Origin: Actinocrinis puniceicyclus
GTDB lineage: Bacteria > Actinomycetota > Actinomycetes > Streptomycetales > Catenulisporaceae
Assembly (NCBI RefSeq): GCF_018283645.1
Contig: NZ_JAGSXH010000058.1
Coordinates: 1-38,304, forward strand
Reading direction: 5' to 3'
DNA length: 38,304 bases
The notes under the pieces are model-generated. The model was not told the origin of the DNA, made no database searches, and saw only the letters and a program-made list of their open reading frames with translations. Shown here in pieces: positions 462-13,406 of this stretch. A program made the position numbers and the translations under genes. Within the stretch, counting starts at the first letter, position 1. Every line of letters starts with the position of its first letter.

Positions 462-1295
462 ATGACGAATCAGGCACACCTACCTGCGTCCTGGCCAAGT
501 GTTTCTGTGGTCATTCCGACGTTGAATGAAGCCAAGAACCTGCCGCACGTGTTCGCTCGGCTACCGGGCGGCGTCCACGAAGTGATCGTCGTGGACGGTC
601 ACTCGGTCGACGACACCTGCGCGGTCGCTCGCCGGCTCAGGCCGGACACCCGGATCGTCATGCAGAACCGCAGCGGCAAGGGCAACGCGCTGGCCTGTGG
701 CTTCGCGGTCAGCACCGGTCAGATCGTCGTCATGCTCGACGCGGACGGATCAGCCGATCCCGGCGAGATTCCCGGGTTCGTCCAGGCCCTGCTGAACGGC
801 GCCGACTTCGCCAAGGGAAGCAGGTTCGCCCCGGGCGGCGGAAGCTCCGATCTGACCCGGCTGCGCACGATGGGCAACCGGGTGCTCATGGCCGTGGTGA
901 ACCGGGCCTACGGCACGGCTTATACGGACCTGTGTTACGGCTTCAACGTCTTCTGGCGGCGGCACCTTCCCGTGCTGAGGCTGGATTCGACGACGCCGCC
1001 GCGAGACGGCGCGCAGCGGCTGTGGGGTGACGGATTCGAGATTGAAACATTGATCGCCATACGCGTGACCGTGGCACGCCTCGCGGTGGTCGAGGTGCCC
1101 AGTTTCGAACATTCCCGTATCCACGGCGCCAGTAATCTCACCGCGGTCAGCGACGGCCTGCGCGTGCTGCGGACGATTTTCGCCGAACGGCGCGCTCGTA
1201 ACGCGGCCGTGCGGCCGCCCCATGGATTCCCCGACACGGGCATGGTCGAGGAATTCGCATCATTTCAGGCACCAGGCTCACGGGAGGCGAAGTGA
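462..1295 (+). CDS. Glycosyltransferase family 2 (polyprenyl-phosphate sugar transferase type)
   Basis: This 277-residue protein has the GT-A fold signature of family 2: an N-terminal VVIPTLNEAKNL segment, the VDGHSVDDT segment of nucleotide binding, and a DADG metal-binding motif followed by DPGEI. The pattern resembles DPM1-like enzymes that load a sugar onto a polyprenyl phosphate or start a glycan chain, acting on the cytoplasmic face of the membrane. No transmembrane helix is obvious at the C-terminus. ATG at 462 is preferred because GGGGA lies just upstream; an in-frame TTG at 447 has no ribosome-binding site. The stop overlaps the GTG of the next gene (GTGA). It is the first gene of the operon. 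Sugar and acceptor cannot be told from sequence. Confidence 0.88.
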   Translation: MTNQAHLPASWPSVSVVIPTLNEAKNLPHVFARLPGGVHEVIVVDGHSVDDTCAVARRLRPDTRIVMQNRSGKGNALACGFAVSTGQIVVMLDADGSADPGEIPGFVQALLNGADFAKGSRFAPGGGSSDLTRLRTMGNRVLMAVVNRAYGTAYTDLCYGFNVFWRRHLPVLRLDSTTPPRDGAQRLWGDGFEIETLIAIRVTVARLAVVEVPSFEHSRIHGASNLTAVSDGLRVLRTIFAERRARNAAVRPPHGFPDTGMVEEFASFQAPGSREAK

Positions 1296-2167
1296 ACGGC
1301 GTCGCACAGAATCTGCGCGGGGCGGCGCGGTCAACGGTTTACCGCCTGCCCGCCGGCCTGGAAAGACGGCTTCTTTTCAGCTACTACCAGCGCAGGCTCC
1401 CGCGCTTCGGCAGGCCGGTGACATTCAGCGACAAGGTCAACTGGCGCATCCTGAACGACCGCAGGCCGCTGCTCGAATGGACCTGCGACAAGCTGGCCAT
1501 GAAGGAATACGCGCGGAAAGCGGGACCGGATCGGCTGCGCGTGCCGCGGACGATCTGGTCCGGCGCAGACCTCGGCGAACTGACGGCGGTCGAACTGCCC
1601 GAGCACTGGGTGCTCAAGCCGAATCACCGGTCCGGGCTGATCTACTTCGGCAGCGGCAAGGCCGATCTGCGGGAGCTGTCGGCCGTGACGGCGACCTGGC
1701 TCGACCCGTTCGAGTCGAGCAGGCTGCGCGAATGGGCCTACGCCAAGGCCCGTGCGCTGTTCCTGGTCGAGGAACTGCTCGGGCCGCCGGGATCGCCGCC
1801 TCCGGACTACAAGATCTTCGTCTTCGACGGCGAGCCGGACCTCATCGAGATGGTGAACCGGTATGACGGGAACCAGCAGAGGCTGTACCGGACGGACTGG
1901 ACGCCGCTGGAAGTGCTGTACGGGCCGCAGTCAATCGCTCCCGTGGCACCACGGCCGCCGCAGTTGGAGCGGATGCTCGACATCGCGCGGCGACTGGGCG
2001 AGCCCTTCGACTTCATCCGTGTCGACCTTTACGACGTCGCCGGATCGATCGTCTTCGGCGAGCTCACCGCCTATCCCTGCGGGGGTCTTGAGCGCTTCAG
2101 ACCGGCCTCGTTCGACGTCGAGCTCGGCGAGAAGTGGCGACTACCCGCATTGCGGCCGGCCACGTGA
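1292..2167 (+). CDS. TupA-like ATP-grasp ligase
   Basis: The 291-residue protein matches the TupA-like ATP-grasp family, named after the teichuronopeptide gene of alkaliphilic Bacillus. Family hallmarks are FSDKVNWRILNDRRPLL near residue 45, CDKLAMKEYAR, VPRTIW, LKPNHRSG (ATP-binding Lys strand), the late acidic segment FDFIRVDLYD and the metal-ligand region GELTAYPCGG. ATP-grasp enzymes of this type are thought to join an amino acid or acid to an amine or carboxylate through an acyl phosphate, here presumably on a cell-surface glycan. The GTG start overlaps the previous stop by 4 bp and has a good ribosome-binding site (GGGAGGCGA, 1282-1290). The next gene encodes an amino-acid epimerase, which fits an amino-acid-decorated polysaccharide. 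The true substrate is unknown. Confidence 0.85.
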   Translation: MNGVAQNLRGAARSTVYRLPAGLERRLLFSYYQRRLPRFGRPVTFSDKVNWRILNDRRPLLEWTCDKLAMKEYARKAGPDRLRVPRTIWSGADLGELTAVELPEHWVLKPNHRSGLIYFGSGKADLRELSAVTATWLDPFESSRLREWAYAKARALFLVEELLGPPGSPPPDYKIFVFDGEPDLIEMVNRYDGNQQRLYRTDWTPLEVLYGPQSIAPVAPRPPQLERMLDIARRLGEPFDFIRVDLYDVAGSIVFGELTAYPCGGLERFRPASFDVELGEKWRLPALRPAT

Positions 2168-2193
2168 AGCCGGCCGAAGGTAAGGAGCCGGAC

Positions 2194-3183
2194 ATGCTCG
2201 ACCCGGATCGCCGGGCCCTGCAGACCGACCATGACGACCTGCGCCTGCGCGGCGTCCCCGGCATCGACGTCGAACTGCTGGCTTTCTCGCTCATGCACGG
2301 CAACGGCAACCTGATCCTCCTGGTGGACGAGACTCTCAGCGGTCTGTCAGCGCACGCGATCGGAAGCGACCTCGGGCGCGAACTGTGCGAGTCGTTCACG
2401 GCAGTGCGCGTGGACGGGATCGCTTTCGTCCGGACGGCCGACGGGCCGGTGCGGATGACCTACTTCGACCGGGACGGCACGAACGCCTCGATGTGCGGTA
2501 ACGCACTGCGCTGCGTGACTCGGTACGGCACCGAACGCGGATACCTGCGCGGCGACGCGGACGTCATCATGACCGACGACGGACCGAAGTGGGTTTCGGC
2601 GGCCGAGGGCCGGATCCGCGTCGCGCTCGGGCCCGGGCGGGAGTTCCAGCGTGTCGCCGCCGACCGGTATTTCGTGTTCAGCGGCGTGGCGCACCTGATC
2701 GTGCTGCTCGATGATCAGCAGGACCTTGATGCGGTCGACGTGCGGAGCGCGGGCGCCGCGCTGCGCTACGACGAGCAGCTGTGCCGCCGGCTGAATCATC
2801 CGGAAGGCCTGCACGTCGACTTCATGCAGCGGTACGAGGACGGCGTGCGCATCCGCACCTACGAGGTCGGGGTGGAGGACGAAACAAGGGCCTGCGGTAC
2901 CGGTTCCGCGGCGTCCGCCTACGTGGCCAACCGTGTCTGGGGTCTGCCATACCCGGTCCGCGTGGTCGTCAGGGAGGGCGAGATACAGGTCGGGGAGAGC
3001 GGGCACGGGCTGCTCATCAGCGGAACCACCGGCCACCTGTTCGGCAACATCCCGCCGATCGACGCACCGATTTCGAGGGCTGCGCAGCCGTCCAGTACAG
3101 CGCAGCCGTCGAGTCCCGCGCAGCCGTCGAGTCCCGCGCAGCTTTCCAGTCCAGCGCCGGCAATCGGAGGCTCCGGTGGCTGA
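2194..3183 (+). CDS. DapF-like amino-acid epimerase/racemase
   Basis: This 329-residue protein has the PLP-independent two-cysteine architecture of diaminopimelate epimerase: MHGNGN at 34-39, the first catalytic Cys in MCGNALRC (C101) and the second in ACGTG (C234). Both proton-shuttling thiols are kept, so it should invert an amino-acid alpha carbon. Residues that hold the distal end of diaminopimelate in DapF look replaced: N64 is Asp92, N157 lies at Val in SGVAH, N190 is His and R209 is Val225. A different amino acid is therefore likely. The ATG at 2194 is chosen for its AAGGAG box at 2182-2187; a GTG at 2134 would overlap the TupA-like gene. Beyond the family length there is a low-complexity tail of AQPSSP repeats. 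It is probably a pathway enzyme of the glycan operon rather than the housekeeping DapF. Confidence 0.82.
   Translation: MLDPDRRALQTDHDDLRLRGVPGIDVELLAFSLMHGNGNLILLVDETLSGLSAHAIGSDLGRELCESFTAVRVDGIAFVRTADGPVRMTYFDRDGTNASMCGNALRCVTRYGTERGYLRGDADVIMTDDGPKWVSAAEGRIRVALGPGREFQRVAADRYFVFSGVAHLIVLLDDQQDLDAVDVRSAGAALRYDEQLCRRLNHPEGLHVDFMQRYEDGVRIRTYEVGVEDETRACGTGSAASAYVANRVWGLPYPVRVVVREGEIQVGESGHGLLISGTTGHLFGNIPPIDAPISRAAQPSSTAQPSSPAQPSSPAQLSSPAPAIGGSGG
3082..3153 (+). repeat. 18-bp tandem repeat at the 3' end of the DapF-like gene
   Basis: Four copies of an 18-bp unit (GCGCAGCCGTCGAGTCCC consensus) run from 3082 to 3153; copies two and three are identical and the outer two differ at a few positions. 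They encode four AQPSS(P/T)-type hexapeptides just before the stop codon and the ribosome-binding site of the next gene. Confidence 0.9.
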
Positions 3184-4405
3184 GCCCAGGCGGGTATGCG
3201 TCGTCGGCCCGGGAACCCGCTTCCTCTCCGGCATCACCTACTACACGTACTCCCTGATCGAGGCGCTCACCGCGGCGGGGCACCAGTGCTCGGCCGTGCT
3301 CATCCGCGATCTGGTGCCGGTCCGTCTCTATCCGGGCCGGGCCCGGGTCGGCGGCGCCCTGACCGAGTTGCGCCTGCCACCGCAGGTGCCGCGGTTCGAC
3401 GGAGTCGACTGGTACTGGGGCCGGTCGCTGGTCCGCGCGGTCGCGTTCCTGCGCAGGCAGCGGCCGCAGGTCCTGGTCCTGCAGTGGTGGACCGGGGCCG
3501 TGCTGCACACCTATCTGGTGCTGGCCGTCGTCGCCCGGCTGTGCGGCGCCAGGGTCGTCGTGGAGTTCCACGAAGCCCAGGACGTCGGCGAGGCCCGGCT
3601 GCCGTTCGTCTCCCGCTACATGGACCTGCTGGGCCGCGCTCTGCTCAGGCTCTCGGCGGCGCAACTGGTCCACTCGCGGTTCGATCACGACCAGGTCAAG
3701 GGTCGCTACGGGGTGGACGAGAGCGCGGTGGTGATTCCGCACGCCGGCTACGACTACCTCCCCTCGCGCCCCCCGCTGCGGGACGCCCCGCAGGGCGTTG
3801 TCAACCTGCTGTATTTCGGCGTCATCCGGCCGTTCAAGGGCGTCGAGGACCTCATCGCGGCCGTGGACCTGCTCGGCCCGGACCGCTCCGGGTTCTGGCT
3901 CACGCTCGTGGGCGAGACCTGGGAGGGCTGGGATCTGCCGAGCCGTCTGATCGCCGACTCGCCGCACCGGGATCGGATCACGTTCGTCAATCGGTACGTC
4001 ACCGACGACGAAGCGGCCGGCTACTTCGCCGGCGCCGACGTCGTCGTGCTGCCGTATCACCGCTCCTCCTCCTCCGGGCCACTCCAGATCGCGATGGCCG
4101 CTGGGCTCGCGTTGGTAGTGACGAAGGTCGGGGGTCTGGTCGAAGCCACGGCCGGCTATCCCGGCGCGGTGCTGGCCGATCCGCGCGACCCGGCCTCGCT
4201 GGCCCAGGGCATCCTCCAGGCGGCCGGGCTCGTCGGACGGCGATTCGAGGGCGTCACCACCTGGGCCGACACCGCCCGCGGCTACACGGAACTGTTCGAC
4301 ACAGTGTTGTCCGACGCAGGGCCGTCCGACACAGGACCGTCCAACGCGGTGCCGTCCAACGCGGTGCCATCCGACGCGGTGCCATCCGACGCGATGTCGC
4401 GGTGA
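3176..4405 (+). CDS. Glycosyltransferase family 4
   Basis: A 409-residue GT-B-fold glycosyltransferase. The N-terminal domain begins VCVVGPGTRFLSGITYYTYSL, and the C-terminal nucleotide-sugar domain carries LLYFGVIRPFKGVEDLI, the acceptor/donor loop SSSSGPLQIAMAAGLALVVT and a GGLVEA turn typical of GT4 retaining enzymes. It should act in the cytoplasm, adding a sugar to the lipid-linked repeat unit. The GTG start at 3176 has CGGAGG five bases upstream and overlaps the previous stop by 8 bp; open frame further upstream is antisense-like and is not used. The last 35 or so residues are a low-complexity tail made by a 15-bp repeat. Sugar specificity is unknown. Confidence 0.88.
   Translation: MAEPRRVCVVGPGTRFLSGITYYTYSLIEALTAAGHQCSAVLIRDLVPVRLYPGRARVGGALTELRLPPQVPRFDGVDWYWGRSLVRAVAFLRRQRPQVLVLQWWTGAVLHTYLVLAVVARLCGARVVVEFHEAQDVGEARLPFVSRYMDLLGRALLRLSAAQLVHSRFDHDQVKGRYGVDESAVVIPHAGYDYLPSRPPLRDAPQGVVNLLYFGVIRPFKGVEDLIAAVDLLGPDRSGFWLTLVGETWEGWDLPSRLIADSPHRDRITFVNRYVTDDEAAGYFAGADVVVLPYHRSSSSGPLQIAMAAGLALVVTKVGGLVEATAGYPGAVLADPRDPASLAQGILQAAGLVGRRFEGVTTWADTARGYTELFDTVLSDAGPSDTGPSNAVPSNAVPSDAVPSDAMSR
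4294..4398 (+). repeat. 15-bp tandem repeat at the 3' end of the first GT4 gene
   Basis: Seven units of 15 bp run without a break from 4294 to 4398; the clearest is GTCCAACGCGGTGCC, present twice in a row at 4339-4368. They encode a PSDAV-like pentapeptide series ending three codons before the stop, which overlaps the flippase start. Confidence 0.92.
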
Positions 4406-5793
4406 CGTTCCTGCGCACGCCCTTCGCACGCGACCGGCTCGGTTCCCGGCTTCGCGTCCGCACCGGGGACCCGCTGGTGATGAACTCGTTGTATCTGACC
4501 GCGACCACGGTCGTGACCTCGCTGCTCGGATACGTCTTCTGGACGGTGGCCGCGCGGATGTATCCGGCGTCGGCCATCGGCGAGGCCGGCGCGGGCGTCT
4601 CGGCCATGGCCTTCGCCTCGCTGCTGGGCGCCCTGGGCGGATCCATGGCCGTGCTGGCCGAGTTGCCCGGCAAGCGCGGGCCGCGCGAGTGGTCGGCCAC
4701 CATCACCGCCCCGCTCGTGTTCACCTCGGCGACGTCGGCGGCCACCGCGCTGGCCACCGTGGCGGTGCTCTCGCTGATGGGGCATTCGGCGTTCCTGTAC
4801 CGGGACGGTTGGTGGGTGGCTGCGTTCGTGGTCGGCGTGGTGGCCACGACGGCCTCCCAGGTGCTGGAGAGCGTCTGGGTGGCCGAACGCCAGGGGATCT
4901 GGTTTCTCGGCGCGAGCACCGTCTTCGCCGTCGTCAAGCTGGCGATCGTCGCCCTTCCGGTGTTCGCGGTGTTCGGGGCCACCGGCATCCTCTCCGCCTG
5001 GTCGGCCGTCCTGGCGGCCACCACCGCGGGCTGCGTGCTGGTGCTGGTGCGCCGGTTCGGATACCGGCCGCGGCTGACGGGCCTGCGCGGGCAGATCTGG
5101 TCGATGCGGCAGAGCCTCACCGGAAACTACGTGATCAGCGTGGGCGATCAGGTGACGCTTTACGCGGTCCCGGTGATCGTCGCGCTGAAGGTGTCTCCGC
5201 AGGCCGCGGGCTGGTTCTACGTGGCCTGGAAGATCGGCGGCTTCTACGCGGTGTTCGCCTCGGCCGTCGGCACCTCCACCTTCGCCGAGGGCAGCCACCG
5301 CCCGCACCGCGTGCTGTCGCTGGCGGCGGCCGGGATGAAGATGATCCTTCCGCTGATCGCCCTCGGCGCCGCCGTGACGATCCTCGGGGGCCGTCTGATC
5401 CTGCACGCCTTCGGCGCGCAGTACGCGGCCCACTCATACACGCTTCTCGTTCTGCTGTCGTTGGGAGCCTTTCCCGACGCGGTGGTCACGATCTACCGCG
5501 GTGTCCTGCGGGTGCACAAGCGGTATCGGACCGCGGCGGCCATCTGCTGGGCCGTCTCCGTCTCCCGGCTCGCTTTCACCGCGCTGGCCTTGGGCTGGTG
5601 GGGCATCACCGGCGCCGGCTGGGCCTGGCTGGCCACGCAGACGGCCGGCGCGCTCTGGTGCGCGCTCGATCTGGCCGTGCACCGCGGCGCGTTCAACGCC
5701 GCGGCAGAAGCCTTCGCCGCAGCAGAAGTCATCACCGCGGAAGCGGTCAGTACCGCGGTAAAAGCCGACAAAGTGTTGAAGGAGGATTCATGA
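4402..5793 (+). CDS. Polysaccharide flippase (Wzx/MOP superfamily)
   Basis: This 463-residue protein is almost entirely hydrophobic helices, about 12 to 14, with short polar loops. It begins the membrane part with SLYLTATTVVTSLLGYVFWTVAARMYPASAIG, a pattern typical of MOP-superfamily polysaccharide transporters: an N-terminal helix, then an ARxY..xxG.g loop (given here only in outline). It would flip the undecaprenyl-linked repeat unit across the membrane. The GTG at 4402 overlaps the previous stop (GTGA), but no strong ribosome-binding site is seen, so translation is probably coupled; ATG at 4480 is a possible alternative. The C-terminal tail is Ala/Glu/Val-rich and derives from an 18-bp repeat. 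The next gene starts inside its stop codon. Confidence 0.83.
   Translation: MTFLRTPFARDRLGSRLRVRTGDPLVMNSLYLTATTVVTSLLGYVFWTVAARMYPASAIGEAGAGVSAMAFASLLGALGGSMAVLAELPGKRGPREWSATITAPLVFTSATSAATALATVAVLSLMGHSAFLYRDGWWVAAFVVGVVATTASQVLESVWVAERQGIWFLGASTVFAVVKLAIVALPVFAVFGATGILSAWSAVLAATTAGCVLVLVRRFGYRPRLTGLRGQIWSMRQSLTGNYVISVGDQVTLYAVPVIVALKVSPQAAGWFYVAWKIGGFYAVFASAVGTSTFAEGSHRPHRVLSLAAAGMKMILPLIALGAAVTILGGRLILHAFGAQYAAHSYTLLVLLSLGAFPDAVVTIYRGVLRVHKRYRTAAAICWAVSVSRLAFTALALGWWGITGAGWAWLATQTAGALWCALDLAVHRGAFNAAAEAFAAAEVITAEAVSTAVKADKVLKEDS
5698..5769 (+). repeat. Degenerate 18-bp tandem repeat at the flippase 3' end
   Basis: Four imperfect 18-bp units beginning GCCGCGGCAGAAG or ACCGCGG (5698, 5716, 5734, 5752) encode AAAEAF, AAAEVI, TAEAVS and TAVKAD. 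The repeat ends just before the ribosome-binding site of the epimerase gene. Confidence 0.7.
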
Positions 5794-6758
5794 TGCGGTG
5801 CCTGGTGACGGGTGGCTGCGGTTTTGTGGGCTCGGCGCTGGTACGACGGCTGCTGGCCGAGTCCTGCGAGGTCCTCGTCGTGGACGATCTCTCCCGGGGT
5901 TCGCGGGAGAACTTCGGAGCGGACCGGGACCTGGTCCGCGTGATCGAGCAGGACGTGACCGACGGCCTGGACCGGGTCTTCTCGTCCTTCCAGCCCCAGG
6001 CCGTCTTCCATCTGGCCGCGCTGCACTTCATTCCCGACTGCGACGCCGACCCGGCGCGCTGCCTGCGGGTCAACGTGGACGGCACGCGGTCCGTGCTGCA
6101 AGCCGCGGCGGGACTTCGCAGCCCGGCCAGCCTGGTGCTGGCCTCCTCCGCGGCGGTATACGCCCCGGCCGACGGGCCGCATCGAGAGCAGGAGGATTCC
6201 CTGGGGCCGGTCGACGTCTACGGGTACTCCAAGCGCTGGACCGAGGAACTGGCGGCGGGTTTCGCGGCCCGCACCGGAACCGGGGTGGGAATCGCACGAC
6301 TCTTCAACGTCTTCGGCCCGGGCGAGACCAACGCGCACTTCATCCCCAGCCTCATCTGCCAGATGAAGGCGGGGGAATCGGTCCGGCTGGGGAATCTCTC
6401 GACCAGGCGGGACTACGTGTTCGTCGACGACGTCGCCGACGCGCTGCTGCGGCTGGCCCGGCACTGCGGCGGCGACTTCGTGCCCGGACAAGCGGTGACG
6501 GTCAACGTCGGCAGCGGGCGGGCCTACTCGGGTCATGACGTGGTCGAGGCGCTGACCAGGTCGATGACGGGAACCGAGCCGGCCGCCGTGGCCCCGGTCG
6601 TCGACCCGAGCCGGCTTCGCCCGGTGGACCGCCCCACCCTGCTGGCCGACCCGACCCTGGCGCAGAAGCTGCTGGACTGGGCACCTCGCACGTCCCTGGC
6701 CGACGGCCTGCGGGCCGCTTGGGACCGCCCGGTCGGCGCCGGGGTGACGCTGACATGA
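5790..6758 (+). CDS. NAD-dependent sugar epimerase/dehydratase (extended SDR)
   Basis: The 322-residue protein has the Rossmann nucleotide motif TGGCGFVG near residue 7, an acidic DD ending strand two (VVDDLSRG), the central catalytic YGYSK (YxxxK) and the conserved LFNVFGPGE and RDYVFVDDVADA segments. These place it with UDP-glucose 4-epimerase and GDP/dTDP-sugar dehydratase-type extended short-chain dehydrogenases. It should make the nucleotide sugar used by the neighbouring glycosyltransferases. ATG 5790 overlaps the flippase stop, and a strong AAGGAGG lies at 5779-5785; ATG 5793 is equally possible. Length is normal for the family. The exact sugar cannot be assigned. Confidence 0.88.
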   Translation: MMRCLVTGGCGFVGSALVRRLLAESCEVLVVDDLSRGSRENFGADRDLVRVIEQDVTDGLDRVFSSFQPQAVFHLAALHFIPDCDADPARCLRVNVDGTRSVLQAAAGLRSPASLVLASSAAVYAPADGPHREQEDSLGPVDVYGYSKRWTEELAAGFAARTGTGVGIARLFNVFGPGETNAHFIPSLICQMKAGESVRLGNLSTRRDYVFVDDVADALLRLARHCGGDFVPGQAVTVNVGSGRAYSGHDVVEALTRSMTGTEPAAVAPVVDPSRLRPVDRPTLLADPTLAQKLLDWAPRTSLADGLRAAWDRPVGAGVTLT

Positions 6759-7846
6759 GGATCGCCATGGTTTCGGCGCACTACGCCCCGTTCGCCGGGG
6801 GCGTCGAGTCCCACGTCGAGGAGATCGCCAAGCGGCTGGCCGAGCGCGGGGAAGCCGTCGAAGTGCTCACCCACCACGACTCCCCCGGCCTTCCCGACAC
6901 CGAGACGCGCGAGGGCGTCCTGGTGCGGCGGTACAAGGTGCCGGTGAACAGCCGGCACTTCGGGGTGTCTCCGGCGGTGTGGGCCACGCTGCTTCGGCAC
7001 CGGGGCCGTTACGACGTGGTGCACGCGCACGGCTACCATTCCGCCGCTCCCCTGGCCGCCGCGATGGCCGGCGCCTCGCCGATGGTGTTCACGCCGCACT
7101 ACCACGGCACCGGGCACTCACCGCTGCGCAAGGCCATCCACATCCCGTACCGGGCCGCCGGCGCGGCGATAGCGGCCCGTTCGCAACGCATCATCTGCGT
7201 CTCCCGCGCCGAGGCCGATCTGTTCCTGACGCACTTCCCCTCGGCCCGGCCGCGCGTCACGGTCATTCCCAACGGCGTCGATCTGGGGCGGATCACCGCG
7301 GCCCGGCCGTTCCCCGACGTGGAAGCGGTGGTCATCACCGGCGGACGCCTCGAGTCGTATAAGCAGGTTGACCGCATCGTCGAAGCCATGGCGCTGACGC
7401 CGCCCGGGCTGCGCCTGGTGGTCACCGGGGACGGCCCCGAGCGCGGCCGCCTCGAAGCACTCGCCGATGAGCGCGCGGTGCGGGACAGGGTCAGCTTCAT
7501 CGGCCGGGTGCAGACCGATCCGCTGTACCGCTGGTACGCCAGCGCCGAGGTGTTCTGCTCCATGTCGTCGAACGAGGCGATGCCGGTCACCATCCTGGAA
7601 CTGTTGGCCGCGGGCGCCCGCGTGGTCGCCTCGGACATCCCGGCGCACCGCGACATCCGCGAGCGCACCGCGGGAGCGATCACCCTGGTGCCCCTCGATG
7701 CCGACCCGGGCGTCCTGGCCCGCGCCCTGGAGCGGGCCGTCAAGGCGGCGCCCGCGCCGGCGCAGCGGATCCCGACCTGGGACGAGGTGACGACGCAGAC
7801 CCTTGATGTCTACCGCGACGTGACGAGCGCGGTGGCGGTGGCATGA
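6755..7846 (+). CDS. Glycosyltransferase family 4
   Basis: A 363-residue GT4 enzyme. It opens with MRIAMVSAHYAPFAGGVE, the glycine-rich acceptor loop of GT-B enzymes, then VVHAHGYHSA, VIPNGVDL and ITGGRLESYKQVDRIVEA, and ends with the donor-site segment SNEAMPVTILELLAAG, including the expected ExxxxxxxE-type acidic pair. It acts on a nucleotide-sugar donor in the cytoplasm. The ATG overlaps the previous stop codon (ATGA), so translation is likely coupled; the ribosome-binding site is weak. Its own stop overlaps the first of four candidate starts of the following gene. Confidence 0.9.
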   Translation: MRIAMVSAHYAPFAGGVESHVEEIAKRLAERGEAVEVLTHHDSPGLPDTETREGVLVRRYKVPVNSRHFGVSPAVWATLLRHRGRYDVVHAHGYHSAAPLAAAMAGASPMVFTPHYHGTGHSPLRKAIHIPYRAAGAAIAARSQRIICVSRAEADLFLTHFPSARPRVTVIPNGVDLGRITAARPFPDVEAVVITGGRLESYKQVDRIVEAMALTPPGLRLVVTGDGPERGRLEALADERAVRDRVSFIGRVQTDPLYRWYASAEVFCSMSSNEAMPVTILELLAAGARVVASDIPAHRDIRERTAGAITLVPLDADPGVLARALERAVKAAPAPAQRIPTWDEVTTQTLDVYRDVTSAVAVA

Positions 7847-7902
7847 ACGAAGGCGGCGTGAACGAAGGCGGCGTGAACGAAGGCGGCATGAACGACCGAC
7901 CG
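7843..7902 (+). repeat. 15-bp repeat that multiplies the start codon
   Basis: Three units of (A/G)TGAACGAAGGCGGC at 7843, 7858 and 7873 are followed by a partial fourth unit beginning ATGAACGA at 7888. Each unit contains a start codon and a Shine-Dalgarno-like GAAGGCGG that sits directly before the next start codon. Confidence 0.93.
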
Positions 7903-9045
7903 GTGCGGGTTCTGTACTGGTTCACCCAGCCCACTCCGTACGCGGTGGCGCGCTTCAACGCGGCCGCCCAGCGGCCGGAGCTCGACTTCCATGCCGTCTT
8001 CTCGCAGGTGCGCGAGCCGGACCGGTCGTGGGACGTGGACGAGTCGGCCTGGAAGTTCCCCGCGGGCTACCTGGGCCGGATCAAGGTGCCGGTGAAGGAA
8101 CTGCGCCGGCTGCGCCCGGACGTGTTCATCCTGGAGTACGACCGCTGGAACCTGGCCCTGGGCGCGGTGATCGGCTTCGCCGCCGCTCGGCGGGTGGCGT
8201 TCCGGGTGCTGCCCAACTTCGATGCCTGGTCGCGCCGCACCTGGTGGCGGGAGCTGGGCAAGAGGGTGCTGTTCAAGGCGGTTGACGCGGCGAAGGTGCC
8301 AGGGCCGCACGGAGCCGCACTGGCGACCCGCTACGGCTTGCCGCGGGAGCGCGTCACCGTGGTCACGCAATCGATCGACGTGACCCACTACGGCCGAGGT
8401 CGCGACATGCGGGCGGCCGAACGGCAGCGGCGGCGCGAAGCGCTGGGGCTGTCCGGATGCGTCTTCCTGTACGTCGGTCGAGTCTGGGCGGGCAAGGGAC
8501 TGGACGAGTTGTTCGCCGCCTACCGGCAGGTCCGTGCGGTCCGCGACGACATCAACCTGCTGATAGTCGGCGACGGCGTCGACTACGAACGCTACTTCGG
8601 CCGGGAGGCGGCCACGGCCGGCGTCGGGTTCGCGGGGTTCGTACAGCCGGCCGATCTCCCGCAGTGGTACGCCCTCTGCGACGTCCTGGTCTTCCCCACC
8701 CACGGCGATCCGAACGGGCTGGTGGTGGAGGAGGCACTGGCCGCCGGCCTGCCCGTGATCGTCTCCGACGCCGCGGGCGACATCAGGGCCCGCGTTCCCG
8801 AGTGCGTCGGCCGCGTCTTCCCGGTAGGGGACGCCGGCGCCCTGGCCCGAGCCATGCGGGACCTGGCCGAGCCGTCGCTGCGGGCGCCCATGGCCCGCCG
8901 CGCGCCGGCCTGGGTCGCATGGAAGGACGACGAGCGCTACGCCGAGGATCTCGCGCGGTTCGCCCGCAGTGTCACGGCAAGCCCGCGCAGGCGGACCGTC
9001 CACCGCGCCGCCTGCGCGGCCGTCGGCCGCCTGCTGGCCCGGTGA
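7843..9045 (+). CDS. Glycosyltransferase family 4
   Basis: A 400-residue GT4 enzyme with VLYWFTQPTPYAVARF at the N-terminus, VTQSIDVTHY at the linker, FLYVGRVWAGKGLDELFAA at the start of the donor domain and the donor loop HGDPNGLVVEEALAAGLPVIVSD, where the E-E pair fits the family. It should add a sugar to the lipid-linked glycan. The start is unusual: a 15-bp repeat supplies four in-frame starts (ATG 7843, GTG 7858, GTG 7873, ATG 7888), each after a purine-rich GAAGGCGG. ATG 7843 overlaps the previous stop and is given here, but ATG 7888 is the start that best matches the domain. Confidence 0.88.
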   Translation: MNEGGVNEGGVNEGGMNDRPVRVLYWFTQPTPYAVARFNAAAQRPELDFHAVFSQVREPDRSWDVDESAWKFPAGYLGRIKVPVKELRRLRPDVFILEYDRWNLALGAVIGFAAARRVAFRVLPNFDAWSRRTWWRELGKRVLFKAVDAAKVPGPHGAALATRYGLPRERVTVVTQSIDVTHYGRGRDMRAAERQRRREALGLSGCVFLYVGRVWAGKGLDELFAAYRQVRAVRDDINLLIVGDGVDYERYFGREAATAGVGFAGFVQPADLPQWYALCDVLVFPTHGDPNGLVVEEALAAGLPVIVSDAAGDIRARVPECVGRVFPVGDAGALARAMRDLAEPSLRAPMARRAPAWVAWKDDERYAEDLARFARSVTASPRRRTVHRAACAAVGRLLAR

Positions 9046-9064: not shown

Positions 9065-10996
9065 ATGATGGTGCCCAGGACCATGACGGCGGTGCCTGTG
9101 ACCATGGCGGAAGGGGCCTACCCTCGCCTGGTGCCTGATGCGATACGCGGACGCAGGGCCGCCCGCGCGGCCGGGCTGGCGGTCGGGTCGGCCCTCGCGG
9201 CCGACGGAGCCGGAGTCCTTCTGCTGGCGGCCGCCGACGCGCGATCCCGGTCCGGGGCGTCGGGCGGTTACCCGCTGTTCTGGGCCGGGCTGGCCCTCAT
9301 CTTCGCGCCGAGCGCGGGGGTTCTGCTGCTGTCTCGGCGCGGCCGAGCGGCCCGGCTCGCCGTGGCCCTGGGTTTCGGGCTCGCGCTGTACCTGGCGAAG
9401 GTCGTCTACGAGCCGACGGCGTTCACCTTCCACGACGAGTTCGCCCACTACCGCAACGCCGCCAACCTGCTGTCATCCGGCCGGCTCTTCGGCTACAACC
9501 CGCTGATCCGCGCCACCGGCTACTACCCGGGCCTGGCCGTGGCCACCGACGCGCTCGCGCGCCTGACCGGGCTTTCGGTCTACACCAGTGGCCTGATCCT
9601 GATCGGCTGCGCGCGGCTGACGCTGGTCGGGGCGCTGTACCTGCTCGTCGACGAACTCCTCGGATCCGCGCGGGCCGCCGGCGTGGCCGTCCTGGTGTAC
9701 GCGGCAGGTCCCAACTTCCTCTACTGGGACGCCCAGTACGGTTACGAATCGCTGGCGCTGCCCCTGGCCGTCCTCGCGCTCTTCTTCCTGGCGCGCCGCG
9801 GCGGGCGGGCGCCGGGCGCCCCGGCGCTCCTGTGCGCTCTGGCGGCCGGGCTCGCCGTGGTGGCCACCCATCACATAACGGCCTGGGTGCTGGCCGTACT
9901 GCTTGCGGCGTGGGCGGCGGCGGTCCGGTCGCGTCGCCGTCAGAGTTCTGACGTTGCATCGACGGAGCCGGACGCGGCGCCGGGAACCGCCGCGGCGGCA
10001 CAGTACGCGCCGACGCTCCCGGCCACGGTCACCACCGGCACGGCGGTGGCGTGGCTGCTCGCCGTGGCACCGATCACCCTCGGATACATCGGCCCGGTGG
10101 TGGCGCGCGCCGCCGTGCAGGGTTTCCAGCTCATCGTCGAACTGCACACCTCGCGCACGCTGTTCGCGAACACGGGCCAGGCCGCCACCGCGCCGGCGTG
10201 GGAGCGGGTGGCCGCCGTCGCCGGAACCCTGGTCATCCTCGCGGCCCTTCCGGTCACCCTCTATCGCGGCAGGCGAACCGGCCTTCCCGTGATCGTCAAG
10301 CTACTGACGTGGTCCTCGCTGGCGTGGGTGGCCCTGCTTCCGCTGCGGTTCACCGCCGGCGGACAGGAGACGGCGAATCGATCCTCCGAGTTTCTCTACG
10401 TGGGTATCGCCGTGTGTTTCGCGCTCCTGCTGGAGCCCCTCCTCGCCTCGTCCCGATGGCGGCGCGTGTCAGCCCTCGGTATCGTCGCCGTGCTGTTCGT
10501 GGGCGGCGTTTCGGTCTCCTGGAACTACTCGCAGCGGCTGGCATCGGACTACCGGCTGACGAACGGATCGGCGCTCGTGACTCCGGACGATCGGGCGCTG
10601 GCCCAATGGATGCTCGCCACGCTCGGTCCGGGGCACCGCGTCGCGACGGACGACCAGACCGGACTGGCCCTCGGTTCGCTGGGACGCCAGGACGTGCTCG
10701 CCTCGGCCGAGGACGGCTCGCGCACGTGGCTGATCTTCTATCCGCCGAGCGTCACCGGTGACGTCCTGGCCGAGATACGCAGATCGGCAGTCGAGTACGT
10801 GGTCGTACAGCGAGACGTGCTCGACCTGCCGACCGGTGTCACCCGCTTCGACGACTCCGAACCGGCGCAGTACTACGACTCCCCGCTGCCCGCCGCCTCG
10901 CTCTCCAAATTCGATTCGAGCCCCCTGTTCCGAGAGATCTACGCGGCCGGGTCTGTGCGCCTGTACCAGGTCGTCGCATCGGCGCGCGGGCGCTGA
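9065..10996 (+). CDS. Polytopic membrane protein, GT-C glycosyltransferase-like
   Basis: This 643-residue protein has many hydrophobic segments and a short acidic motif, FHDEFAHYRNAANLL (about residues 120-135), in what should be the first large extracytoplasmic loop. A DE or ED pair at this place is typical of GT-C enzymes that use polyprenyl-phosphate sugars outside the cell. A soluble C-terminal domain of about 150 residues follows the last helix. I could not place it in a named GT family. Four in-frame ATGs lie at 9065, 9068, 9083 and 9104; the first is favoured because GAAGGGCGAG lies upstream. The 19-bp gap from the previous gene keeps it in the operon. It may add side-chain sugars or polymerise the repeat unit. 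Confidence 0.7.
   Translation: MMVPRTMTAVPVTMAEGAYPRLVPDAIRGRRAARAAGLAVGSALAADGAGVLLLAAADARSRSGASGGYPLFWAGLALIFAPSAGVLLLSRRGRAARLAVALGFGLALYLAKVVYEPTAFTFHDEFAHYRNAANLLSSGRLFGYNPLIRATGYYPGLAVATDALARLTGLSVYTSGLILIGCARLTLVGALYLLVDELLGSARAAGVAVLVYAAGPNFLYWDAQYGYESLALPLAVLALFFLARRGGRAPGAPALLCALAAGLAVVATHHITAWVLAVLLAAWAAAVRSRRRQSSDVASTEPDAAPGTAAAAQYAPTLPATVTTGTAVAWLLAVAPITLGYIGPVVARAAVQGFQLIVELHTSRTLFANTGQAATAPAWERVAAVAGTLVILAALPVTLYRGRRTGLPVIVKLLTWSSLAWVALLPLRFTAGGQETANRSSEFLYVGIAVCFALLLEPLLASSRWRRVSALGIVAVLFVGGVSVSWNYSQRLASDYRLTNGSALVTPDDRALAQWMLATLGPGHRVATDDQTGLALGSLGRQDVLASAEDGSRTWLIFYPPSVTGDVLAEIRRSAVEYVVVQRDVLDLPTGVTRFDDSEPAQYYDSPLPAASLSKFDSSPLFREIYAAGSVRLYQVVASARGR
9070..9111 (+). repeat. 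Two-copy 21-bp repeat carrying start codons
   Basis: Two adjacent 21-bp units, each starting GGTGCC and containing GACCATG, occupy 9070-9090 and 9091-9111 and match at 16 of 21 positions. They supply extra in-frame ATGs (9083 and 9104) at the start of the GT-C-like gene. Confidence 0.65.
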
Positions 10997-11113: not shown

Positions 11114-11820
11114 GCGGGCTGCGGGCGGCCTGTTCGACGCTCGCCGTCGCCGCGTTCGTCGTCGTCTGCGCGTCGTCGGCCGGGCCGGTCAGGCAGATCG
11201 CGGGCCTGGGCCTGGCCGGCGCCCTCCTCTGCGCCGCGTGGCTCGTCCACCGGGCGCGATTCGAAGCGATCGTGCCGGCCGCCGGTCTGACTCTGGTCTT
11301 CCTGGTCCTGGCCGGGCTCGCGCTCGCCGCCGTTCACGCCCTGAGCACCGTCCCCTTCGCGCTGACGTTGACGCTCGTCACCCTCGCCGCCCTCTGGGCC
11401 GGCGCCCTGCGTGCCCCCGCCGGGTCCGCCGGGTCCGCGGAGCGAAGCGCACGGCTCAACGCGCCGCCCCCGCTCGCCGCCGCCGGCGTCCTGGCCTTCG
11501 CGGCCGCCGCGGTCCTGGCCGTTCACCACGGCGCGTCCGCGGCCACGGCCGACGCTGACGCAGCGTCATCCGTCGCGATCTGGGCCTACCCCTCGGGGGG
11601 GCAACTCCAGGTCGGCGCGCGGCAGCCCGCCGGGCGCGGCGGCACGTCGCTGCGGATCGTCGTGACCCAGGCAGGCGTCACCGTCGCGACGTGGAACGAC
11701 ATTCGCCTCGCCCCGGGCGGGACCTGGCAGGCACCCGCGTTCACCGTCACCGGCGACGGCCCCGTCAGGGTGGTCGCGCTTCACGGCGGGACCGTCGTGG
11801 CGAGCCTGTCGAATCGGTGA
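11029..11820 (+). CDS. Unknown membrane protein with extracytoplasmic C-terminal domain
   Basis: I do not recognise this 263-residue protein. After a repeat-derived N-terminus (MRTLTMRALIMRALTT) come four to five hydrophobic helices (roughly residues 32-125 and 145-165). A soluble C-terminal part of about 90 residues follows, with alternating hydrophobic strands ending VVALHGGTVVASLSNR, which looks like a small beta-domain outside the cell. Starts are possible at ATG 11029, 11044 or 11059; none has a strong ribosome-binding site. It lies 32 bp after the GT-C-like gene and 23 bp before the hydrolase gene, so it belongs to the operon and may be an accessory of glycan export or modification. No catalytic motif is visible. 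Confidence 0.65.
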   Translation: MRTLTMRALIMRALTTSNLTTRTPTTSRRGLRAACSTLAVAAFVVVCASSAGPVRQIAGLGLAGALLCAAWLVHRARFEAIVPAAGLTLVFLVLAGLALAAVHALSTVPFALTLTLVTLAALWAGALRAPAGSAGSAERSARLNAPPPLAAAGVLAFAAAAVLAVHHGASAATADADAASSVAIWAYPSGGQLQVGARQPAGRGGTSLRIVVTQAGVTVATWNDIRLAPGGTWQAPAFTVTGDGPVRVVALHGGTVVASLSNR

Positions 11821-11843
11821 CGGCAACCCGGGAAACGAGGCCG

Positions 11844-13406
11844 ATGAGACGCCGCGGCCTGCGGTTACGCATCGGGCTGACGGCGGCTGTGATCACCGTG
11901 ATCGCCGCACTCATGTCCGCGGCGGCGCCGTCCGGCCCGTCACCCGCGGCAGGCTGCGGGAATGCCGGCAGCCGGTCATCCGCGCTGAGCCGATACCTGC
12001 GCACCCTGCGGCTCATGAACTACTTCCCGTCCGACGCGGGATGGCAGTACATGTGGACCCGGTGGGAGCCCGACCGGATCGACCACGATTTCGCGGTCAT
12101 GGCGACCATGGGCGTCAATACGGTCCGGATCACGGTGTTCCCGGACGTGATGGGCTTCCCGACGCCGAGTGCGGCCATGCGATCCCGCCTCGCGCAGATC
12201 CTCGGCATGGCCGGCGCCCACGGGCTCAAGGTGCAGCTGTCCCTCTTCGATCAGTTCACCGACTTCGCGGATATCCCGGACAGCCTGACCTGGGCACACG
12301 ATCTGCTCGAACCCCTGGCCGGAAGCTCGCGGCAGATCGGGTTCATCGACCTGCGCAACGAAATCGACGCGCCGGCCACGATGGATGATCCTGCCGTTCA
12401 CCGGCCTCAGGTCTACCGGTGGCTGGACGCGCTGCTTCCCGCAGTGCGACACGACGCGCACGGCGTCCCGGTCGCCCTGTCCGTGACCGAGCCGGCCCAC
12501 ATCAGTGCCCTGCGGGTCGCCCTGCGGGTCGAGCCGGACTTCTGGGACCTGCACTACTACTCGTCCGACGCTCTCGCCTACGCGACCATGGACGAAGCGA
12601 TCCAGGCCGCGGCGCCCCGGCCGGTCTTCGTAGGGGAGACGGGCTTCGCGACGGCGGCGGACGGTTCCCCGCCGGGCCTGCCCGCCGCGGCGCCTTCGCT
12701 GGAGGCATACCAGGCGCACTACTACCAGGTGATCGAGCAGGCCGCGCTCTCGCTTTGTCTCGGCCCGGCCGCCCCCTGGGCCCTGTACGACTTCACCCGG
12801 GCCGCCATTCCGAGCCGGCAGCAGCCGGACCAGTACGCCTTCGGGCTGCTCGACACCGACGGCAAACCCAAGCCCGCGGCCGCCGTCATCCGCCGGATCT
12901 TCCACGGCGCGAGCATCGGCGATGACTTCAACGGCGACTTCTCACAGGCGGTGACGACGCCCCGGGGCGAACTGCCGGCCGTCTGGCGCCTGTGGGAGCC
13001 CGACCAGGCTCGGTTCGCGCTGGACCCGGCCCGCGGTCACGAAACGCCGGGCTCGGCCCGCATCTCGGACAGCGGCGGCTCCGCTGAGGGCATGCCGGCG
13101 TTCTATACCGTCCCGGTTCAACCGCAGACAGTGCCGGGATACCGCTACCGCGTGACGGCGTGGGTCCGCGGGCAGGCGGCGACCGGGACCACCGTGGTCA
13201 ACGTCAGCTGGTTCGACAGCCGCGGCGTCTTCATCAGCGGCTGCGACTCGGCCGCCCTCGACCCGGGCGACACGGACTGGACCGAACTGGAAGCCACCGG
13301 GACGGCGCCGCCCGCGGCCGCCTTCGCGGAAATCTGGCTCAAGAGCGCGCACAACTCCGGCGCCGTGTGGTTCGACGACGTGACCTGGACGCGGTGGGCG
13401 GCATAG
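11844..13406 (+). CDS. Membrane-anchored clan GH-A glycoside hydrolase with C-terminal jelly-roll domain
   Basis: This 520-residue protein begins with a basic region and one hydrophobic helix (about 9-28), so it is exported or anchored by its N-terminus. Residues 45-350 look like a (beta/alpha)8 glycosidase of the GH5-like clan GH-A: a predicted acid/base Glu in IDLRNEID (E173), HYY near 237, and a predicted nucleophile in VFVGETGF (E265). Residues about 355-520 form a beta-rich domain with FDDVTW near its end, typical of carbohydrate-binding jelly rolls. ATG 11844 follows GAGG; a GTG at 11817 overlaps the previous stop but has no ribosome-binding site. As the last gene of the glycan operon it may trim, release or edit the polymer. 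Confidence 0.8.
   Translation: MRRRGLRLRIGLTAAVITVIAALMSAAAPSGPSPAAGCGNAGSRSSALSRYLRTLRLMNYFPSDAGWQYMWTRWEPDRIDHDFAVMATMGVNTVRITVFPDVMGFPTPSAAMRSRLAQILGMAGAHGLKVQLSLFDQFTDFADIPDSLTWAHDLLEPLAGSSRQIGFIDLRNEIDAPATMDDPAVHRPQVYRWLDALLPAVRHDAHGVPVALSVTEPAHISALRVALRVEPDFWDLHYYSSDALAYATMDEAIQAAAPRPVFVGETGFATAADGSPPGLPAAAPSLEAYQAHYYQVIEQAALSLCLGPAAPWALYDFTRAAIPSRQQPDQYAFGLLDTDGKPKPAAAVIRRIFHGASIGDDFNGDFSQAVTTPRGELPAVWRLWEPDQARFALDPARGHETPGSARISDSGGSAEGMPAFYTVPVQPQTVPGYRYRVTAWVRGQAATGTTVVNVSWFDSRGVFISGCDSAALDPGDTDWTELEATGTAPPAAAFAEIWLKSAHNSGAVWFDDVTWTRWAA

Follow-up and report, generated by a model that had tools for sequence, protein, structure and literature searches.

In the actinobacterium Actinocrinis puniceicyclus, a contig stretch of 38,304 nt (C384:1-38304, hereafter the window; genome of 6.77 Mb, completeness 98.85%) carries a gene for a predicted TupA-type ATP-grasp amidoligase (1292-2167) immediately followed by a gene for a DapF-fold protein. 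The latter is very probably an amino-acid racemase rather than a diaminopimelate (DAP) epimerase: it has lost the residues that bind the distal carboxylate of DAP, it resembles the 2,4-diaminobutyrate (Dab) racemase PddB, and the closest relative found is encoded next to a Pls-type synthetase. We tentatively propose that the operon builds a surface glycan bearing a D-configured diamino acid by means of a PddB-type racemase and a TupA-type ligase. The initial annotation had described a TupA-like ligase followed by a DapF-like epimerase within a glycosyltransferase/flippase operon, and both its coordinates and its gene calls hold in profile matches and in the sequence.

Naming the second protein a DapF-like epimerase was right in so far as it passes DapF cut-offs. 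The open reading frame at 2134-3183 matches PF01678 with 93.3 bits (cut-off 34.7) and TIGR00652 with 137.9 bits (cut-off 114.65). Passing TIGR00652 fails to discriminate DapF from a racemase, because two relatives discussed below, from loci L080 (130 bits) and L010 (118 bits), pass as well; a third, from L011, falls narrowly short (112 bits). The name misleads in that the gene is a second, divergent copy: a full-length, separate DapF with the canonical residue set is encoded elsewhere in the host genome (G000:C222). Asn64, Asn157, Asn190 and Arg209 of Haemophilus influenzae DapF correspond to D92, V165, H207 and V225 in the window protein, so that all four residues binding the distal carboxylate of DAP are replaced, while Glu208 is kept as E224. 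Among 20 DapF-type proteins with loci (out of 39 non-host matches, 38 and 1 from two surveys), Arg209 and Asn64 are kept in 20/20, GNPH in 19/20 and Asn190 in 17/20 with three gapped, in a lopsided set where 15 of the 20 proteins come from a single family (f59) and all 15 have Ser at the second catalytic Cys. Arg209 is likewise kept in all four alignments shown for DapF entries of the PDB (one from Acinetobacter baumannii, three of the Escherichia coli type).

The catalytic cysteines of the window protein (C101 and C234, preceding helices 102-115 and 235-249) and the two-domain fold are conserved. An AF2 model built from a four-row alignment (pLDDT 77.8) has the DapF fold and retrieved DapF chains with Z scores of 23.7-30.2, the top three chains being DAP epimerases (Z 28.8-30.2). 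O-ureidoserine racemase of the D-cycloserine pathway (PDB 7vdy), a pathway-specific racemase with the same fold that differs in substrate and gene context, also aligned with the model (Z 28.2, 247 residues, rmsd 2.5, 27% identity). A role as a second DapF for peptidoglycan was rejected in view of the replaced pocket residues and the separate DapF gene.

Relatives were sought in partly overlapping samples of 394 genomes of the class, 343 of the order, 396 of the phylum and 397 of another order; in most genomes the best 5-6 first-look candidates were scored, and relatives may have escaped. The class sample gave one further match to the racemase query (P0002) at 1e-20 (G346, L057), a canonical DapF by its residues, and plasmids gave 11 records with relatives at no more than 31.3% identity. 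In two other genomes of the host's family (L055:9025-9969 and L056:9106-10041), a DapF-type protein carrying ERGNEAETLSCASG groups with a protein of the same order (L078), apart from the window protein. In 15 genomes of family f59, from the host's phylum (L060, L061, L063, L064, L066, L067, L069-L077), the DAP-binding Arg is kept and the second catalytic Cys is replaced by Ser in an ASGSG or ASGTG context.

PddB of Streptoalloteichus hindustanus (WP_073484545.1), which acts in poly-D-Dab synthesis, is described as the first cofactor-independent Dab racemase. As far as the accessible part of that description goes (PMC8225329), it has an N-terminal extension of 27-28 residues, Cys101 and Cys233, a conserved Glu208, three replaced Asn and Val in place of Arg209; it shares 53-57% identity with three homologues, including a demonstrated Dab racemase, and it was inert on ornithine and 2,3-diaminopropionate, in a panel that also held Arg, Lys and LL-DAP. 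Compared by this description and not by sequence, the window protein has the same set of traits: the first residue of H. influenzae DapF falls opposite its residue 29, leaving a 28-residue extension, and its Glu, its Val, its three replaced Asn and its cysteines (101/234 versus 101/233) correspond. Both proteins share the DapF fold, and each coexists with a separate DapF in its genome (for PddB, PMC8225329). The gene neighbourhood differs, since the window racemase adjoins a TupA-type amidoligase and a GT4 enzyme in a glycosyltransferase operon and not a Pls/PosA-type synthetase (PddA).

The closest relative found, the L080 protein, is 59% identical to the window protein (58% in the tree alignment, 55% by tblastn) and was the sole match at 1e-35 in the other-order sample of 397 genomes. 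Its gene begins 27 nt after the gene for a 1336-aa nonribosomal peptide synthetase (NRPS) of the Pls/PosA type (505.6 bits, cut-off 423.1), which is the pddA-pddB order. Next come relatives from Streptomyces (L010, 40%) and Saccharothrix (L011), at 37-40% identity, the latter encoded behind an NRPS. In a tree of 12, the window and L080 proteins group with support values of 94/95, and these two with L010 and L011 at 99/96. The L010 gene of Streptomyces sp. CB02366 (L010:7980-8873, within L010:3754-11401) is flanked by the gene of a MutL-type reactivase on one side and that of a fused D-ornithine 4,5-aminomutase on the other, in a locus that also encodes an ornithine/lysine monooxygenase and a pyridoxal phosphate (PLP) decarboxylase; its product may be a PLP-independent ornithine racemase. 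The motif YEVGVEDET of the window protein was rejected as a Dab marker. It is missing from the L080 protein, and taken alone it does not denote Dab, because it is carried by a Haloarcula protein (L012) of 29-31% identity that lacks the N-terminal extension. In Haloarcula pellucida this gene follows those of a chorismate-binding enzyme and a glutamine amidotransferase (L012:5777-8783).

The ligase gene matches PF14305 (ATPgrasp_TupA) over profile positions 2-239 of 241 (81.5 bits, cut-off 25, E 9e-23) and is the only such match in the host genome. An alignment of the ligase with 17 homologues, from which two matches in L045, two pieces in L046 and the second match in L048 were omitted (n=5), has 26 columns invariant in 18/18 sequences, and all of these are present in the ligase, including K67, K109, E160, K174, R243, D245 and E257. 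At E 1e-15, 13 of the 394 class genomes hold a relative, host counted; within the host's family a PF14305 match was found in the host itself and in none of the other genomes (1/14). No TupA-type relatives were found in viral contigs, and plasmid relatives of the query protein P0001 number 122 records, 20 of them listed. Some neighbours of TupA-type genes were looked at in 5 of 18 loci: glycan genes occur in L036 and L038, and the single neighbour scanned in L037 has no Pfam match. In the remaining two, from one genus (L039:10318-11268 and L040:10505-11440), the TupA-type gene adjoins a formyltransferase gene, and L039 also has an M24 peptidase gene farther along. These two genes lie outside an evident glycan locus, and TupA-type ligases may act beyond polysaccharides.

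The initial annotation took TupA as the mark of a polymer joining acidic sugars to amino acids. Uronic acid amidation is known: in the accessible part of PMC11800379, the TupA-like domain of Campylobacter jejuni Cj1438 amidates C6 of glucuronic acid (GlcA) in the capsule with serinol phosphate or ethanolamine phosphate. Given these amines, the TupA-type chemistry that has been shown is amide formation on a uronic acid and not amino-acid transfer as such, and the L039/L040 genes indicate that the family does not always go with recognisable glycan loci.

In the scheme that we propose, a cofactor-independent, two-cysteine (C101/C234) racemase would convert an L-diamino acid, most likely L-2,4-diaminobutyrate or else ornithine, into its D-form. 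The TupA-type ligase would activate a carboxylate of the glycan or of a precursor, C6 of a uronic acid being the most likely site, and would link this carboxylate as an amide to an amino group on the D-amino acid. The GT2 and GT4 enzymes would assemble the repeat, and the flippase-like protein would export the glycan. The racemase substrate is probably a cationic diamino acid. The case for use of its product by the ligase on a glycan is evenly balanced, and Dab itself as the substrate is a serious possibility that stays short of probable. With more reserve than for the scheme at large, we suggest that a racemase recruited from poly-D-Dab-type metabolism and a TupA-type amidoligase together link a cationic D-diamino acid, either D-Dab or D-Orn, to a uronic acid as an amide, which would give this actinobacterium a zwitterionic or cationic, protease-resistant D-aminoacyl polysaccharide. 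The parts are known, their combination is unusual or new, and the product is a prediction. What the sequence shows is the identity and layout of the genes, the lost DAP pocket and the kinship to a protein encoded beside a Pls-type synthetase; the substrates of both enzymes, the connection between them, the uronic acid and the export step are inferred. The proposal that the pair could supply and attach a D-amino acid thus gains force, and is narrowed to a diamino acid, because the epimerase is not an ordinary DapF, its nearest kin are encoded next to a Pls-type synthetase, an aminomutase or an NRPS, and amidation of a capsule uronic acid by a TupA-type ligase has precedent. The involvement of a D-amino acid is in this respect better grounded than the annotation knew.

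Several observations weigh against the scheme, beginning with the lopsided comparison set and the shared Haloarcula motif mentioned above. Another is the lack of recurrence. A profile search found no DapF-type gene in the 18 non-host TupA regions (0/18), which are 10-20 kb each and hold all 22 non-host TupA matches from the class genomes; the profile scored 89.5-108 bits on four DapF-type proteins that had not been used to build it. Conversely, no TupA-type gene was found in the loci of the racemase relatives (0/4; L010, L011, L012 and L080/L081). As far as sampled, the ligase-racemase pair is confined to the host genome, so that a recurring pathway is unsupported by these samples, an outcome that the annotation had itself named as telling against it. 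Nor did literature searches, limited to open-access papers, list a title or abstract opening on the pair, and the portions available of a paper on histidine racemase (PMC11602996) and of a review of racemases (PMC8142540) hold nothing decisive.

Other points of this kind concern the relatives, the model and the supply of precursors. At the Arg209 position the L080 protein carries Pro instead of Val, and the 27 kb around the L080 pair gave no match to either of two class-III transaminase queries, in a search run without a positive control; the L080 polymer is for both reasons not proven to be poly-D-Dab. The single-sequence AF2 model of the TupA-type ligase has a pLDDT of 32. No Dab transaminase over the cut-off was found in the host genome, the best match (242 bits versus 401.6) being a gamma-aminobutyrate (GABA) transaminase; among the four candidates whose loci were looked at (L084-L087, of 8 places), the class-III enzyme of L085 is ambiguous, with 261.6 bits for the Dab-transaminase model and 263.9 for the acetylornithine model, both far below cut-off. 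The missing match can be read as evidence against Dab, as a sign that Dab comes from an enzyme not recognised here, or as favouring ornithine. Of the window proteins that were scanned, none was recognisable as the product of a uronic-acid gene. The host has four nucleotide-sugar dehydrogenases over the cut-off; for two of these the nearest models are those of UDP-glucose 6-dehydrogenase, whose own cut-offs they do not reach; because of these enzymes, UDP-glucuronate is likely to be available.

The sugar epimerase of the operon, an extended short-chain dehydrogenase/reductase (SDR), scores 129.6 bits with the GalE model (cut-off 262.3), and its PDB matches include two UDP-glucose 4-epimerase chains (107.4 and 100.2 bits) and MoeE5 (98.8 bits). 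Before V-Y it reads Ser-Ala-Ala against Ser-Ser-Ser in MoeE5, and in place of the GPGQRPDM of MoeE5 it carries GPGETNAH. The carboxylate-binding Thr-Ser-Ser and Arg185 of BcUGAepi are absent from it, with Arg185 taken to correspond to the MoeE5 Arg; this absence also belongs with the adverse points. An assignment as UDP-glucuronate 4-epimerase was dropped, as the UDP-glucose 4-epimerase chains score higher and the carboxylate residues are absent.

The alternative that survives best, although we consider it unlikely, uncouples the two enzymes: the racemase would make a D-diamino acid for another use, either free or in a peptide or siderophore made elsewhere, the ligase would attach a different amine, such as an amino alcohol phosphate or an L-amino acid, and their adjacency would be an accident of cluster assembly. 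The absence of the pair from the other loci sampled (0/18 and 0/4), the amines taken by the C. jejuni enzyme in the accessible part of PMC11800379, and the NRPS and aminomutase loci of the racemase kin are all consistent with it. The position of the racemase gene, wedged between the ligase gene and a GT4 gene that it overlaps by 8 nt, argues the other way. So does the host genome, which has no Pls-type synthetase over the cut-off (best 21.6 bits; ordinary NRPSs were not searched for). The idea that the window racemase feeds a host Pls-type synthetase was rejected on the same count.

A glycan decorated as proposed, with a D-diamino acid other than Dab (D-ornithine, D-lysine, D-2,3-diaminopropionate or another), appears more unlikely still. 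The place of the 40% identical L010 relative, between a reactivase and D-ornithine 4,5-aminomutase, and the lack of a Dab transaminase over the cut-off in the host would suit ornithine, which is obtainable from arginine synthesis. Against this, the window protein is much closer to the L080 protein behind its Pls-type synthetase (59%) than to those of L010 and L011 (37-40%), and PddB itself does not act on ornithine or 2,3-diaminopropionate in the part of PMC8225329 cited above. It is very improbable that the protein is a second, divergent DAP epimerase supplying meso-DAP with no link to the ligase, since the TIGR00652 pass and the kept cysteines that would favour this are outweighed by the loss of all four distal-carboxylate residues, the Arg209 kept in 20/20 DapF-type proteins, the other DapF of the host, and the L080 and L010 proteins that pass the same cut-off.

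Two known TupA-type systems resemble the proposed D-diamino-acid glycan operon. TupA of Bacillus halodurans, the namesake of PF14305, belongs to teichuronopeptide, a surface polymer that combines acidic sugar with amino acid and, in the accessible part of PMC8153356, consists of polyglucuronate and poly-gamma-L-glutamate. The window differs in having a racemase beside the ligase, and the window proteins that were scanned included no recognisable polyglutamate gene product. Cj1438C of the C. jejuni capsule is likewise a TupA-like ATP-grasp enzyme that amidates C6 of GlcA in a cluster with GT2 enzymes, but it is fused to GT2 and uses the two amine phosphates rather than a D-amino acid (PMC11800379, accessible part). 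If the proposal is true, D-diamino acids would serve to decorate glycans as well as to build peptides, and each modified residue of the glycan would bear a free amino group along with a free carboxylate, making the glycan partly cationic and hard to digest. In a single test, gene neighbourhood would then identify both the amino acid and the ligase. Because the TIGR00652 cut-off sweeps in pathway-specific racemases, genomes may hide more D-amino-acid pathways under the name dapF.

The genes of the operon are listed in Table 1. The GT2 and ligase genes overlap by 4 nt. The racemase gene likely starts at ATG 2194, with AAGGAG ahead of it and 26 nt past the ligase stop, although its longest open reading frame begins at 2134. 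The GT4 gene that overlaps its end also overlaps the gene of the flippase-like protein. The plus-strand set is tightly packed from 462 to about 10996; the gene downstream of it at 11817 may or may not belong to the operon.

Table 1. Plus-strand genes of the operon and the gene downstream of it, with the matches on which their names rest.
Feature	Coordinates	Strand	Evidence
GT2 family glycosyltransferase	462..1295	+	PF00535, 81 bits; no TM-like segment; start from sequence inspection
TupA-type ATP-grasp amidoligase (predicted)	1292..2167	+	PF14305, 81.5 bits
DapF-fold amino-acid racemase, PddB-like (predicted)	2194..3183	+	PF01678, TIGR00652
GT4 family glycosyltransferase	3176..4405	+	PF13692, 60 bits
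Flippase-like membrane protein	4402..5793	+	9 hydrophobic segments; without Pfam match
NAD-dependent sugar epimerase (extended SDR), GalE-like	5790..6758	+	PF01370, 174 bits
GT4 family glycosyltransferase	6719..7846	+	PF13439, 111 bits
GT4 family glycosyltransferase	7843..9045	+	PF13692, 87 bits
DUF6541-like protein, weak PMT_2 (GT-C) likeness	9065..10996	+	Both matches below cut-offs
Protein with single N-terminal hydrophobic segment, weak GH42-like likeness	11817..13406	+	16.3 bits (cut-off 21)

A large set of minus-strand genes lies at 14807-38222 of the window. They encode an ABC ATPase, a solute-binding protein, a 1497-aa FtsK/FHA ATPase, a transglutaminase, a DUF58 protein and a MoxR ATPase, as well as a 2083-aa Big_9/fn3 repeat protein, a protein kinase and an FHA protein, and look like a surface-protein and kinase cluster.

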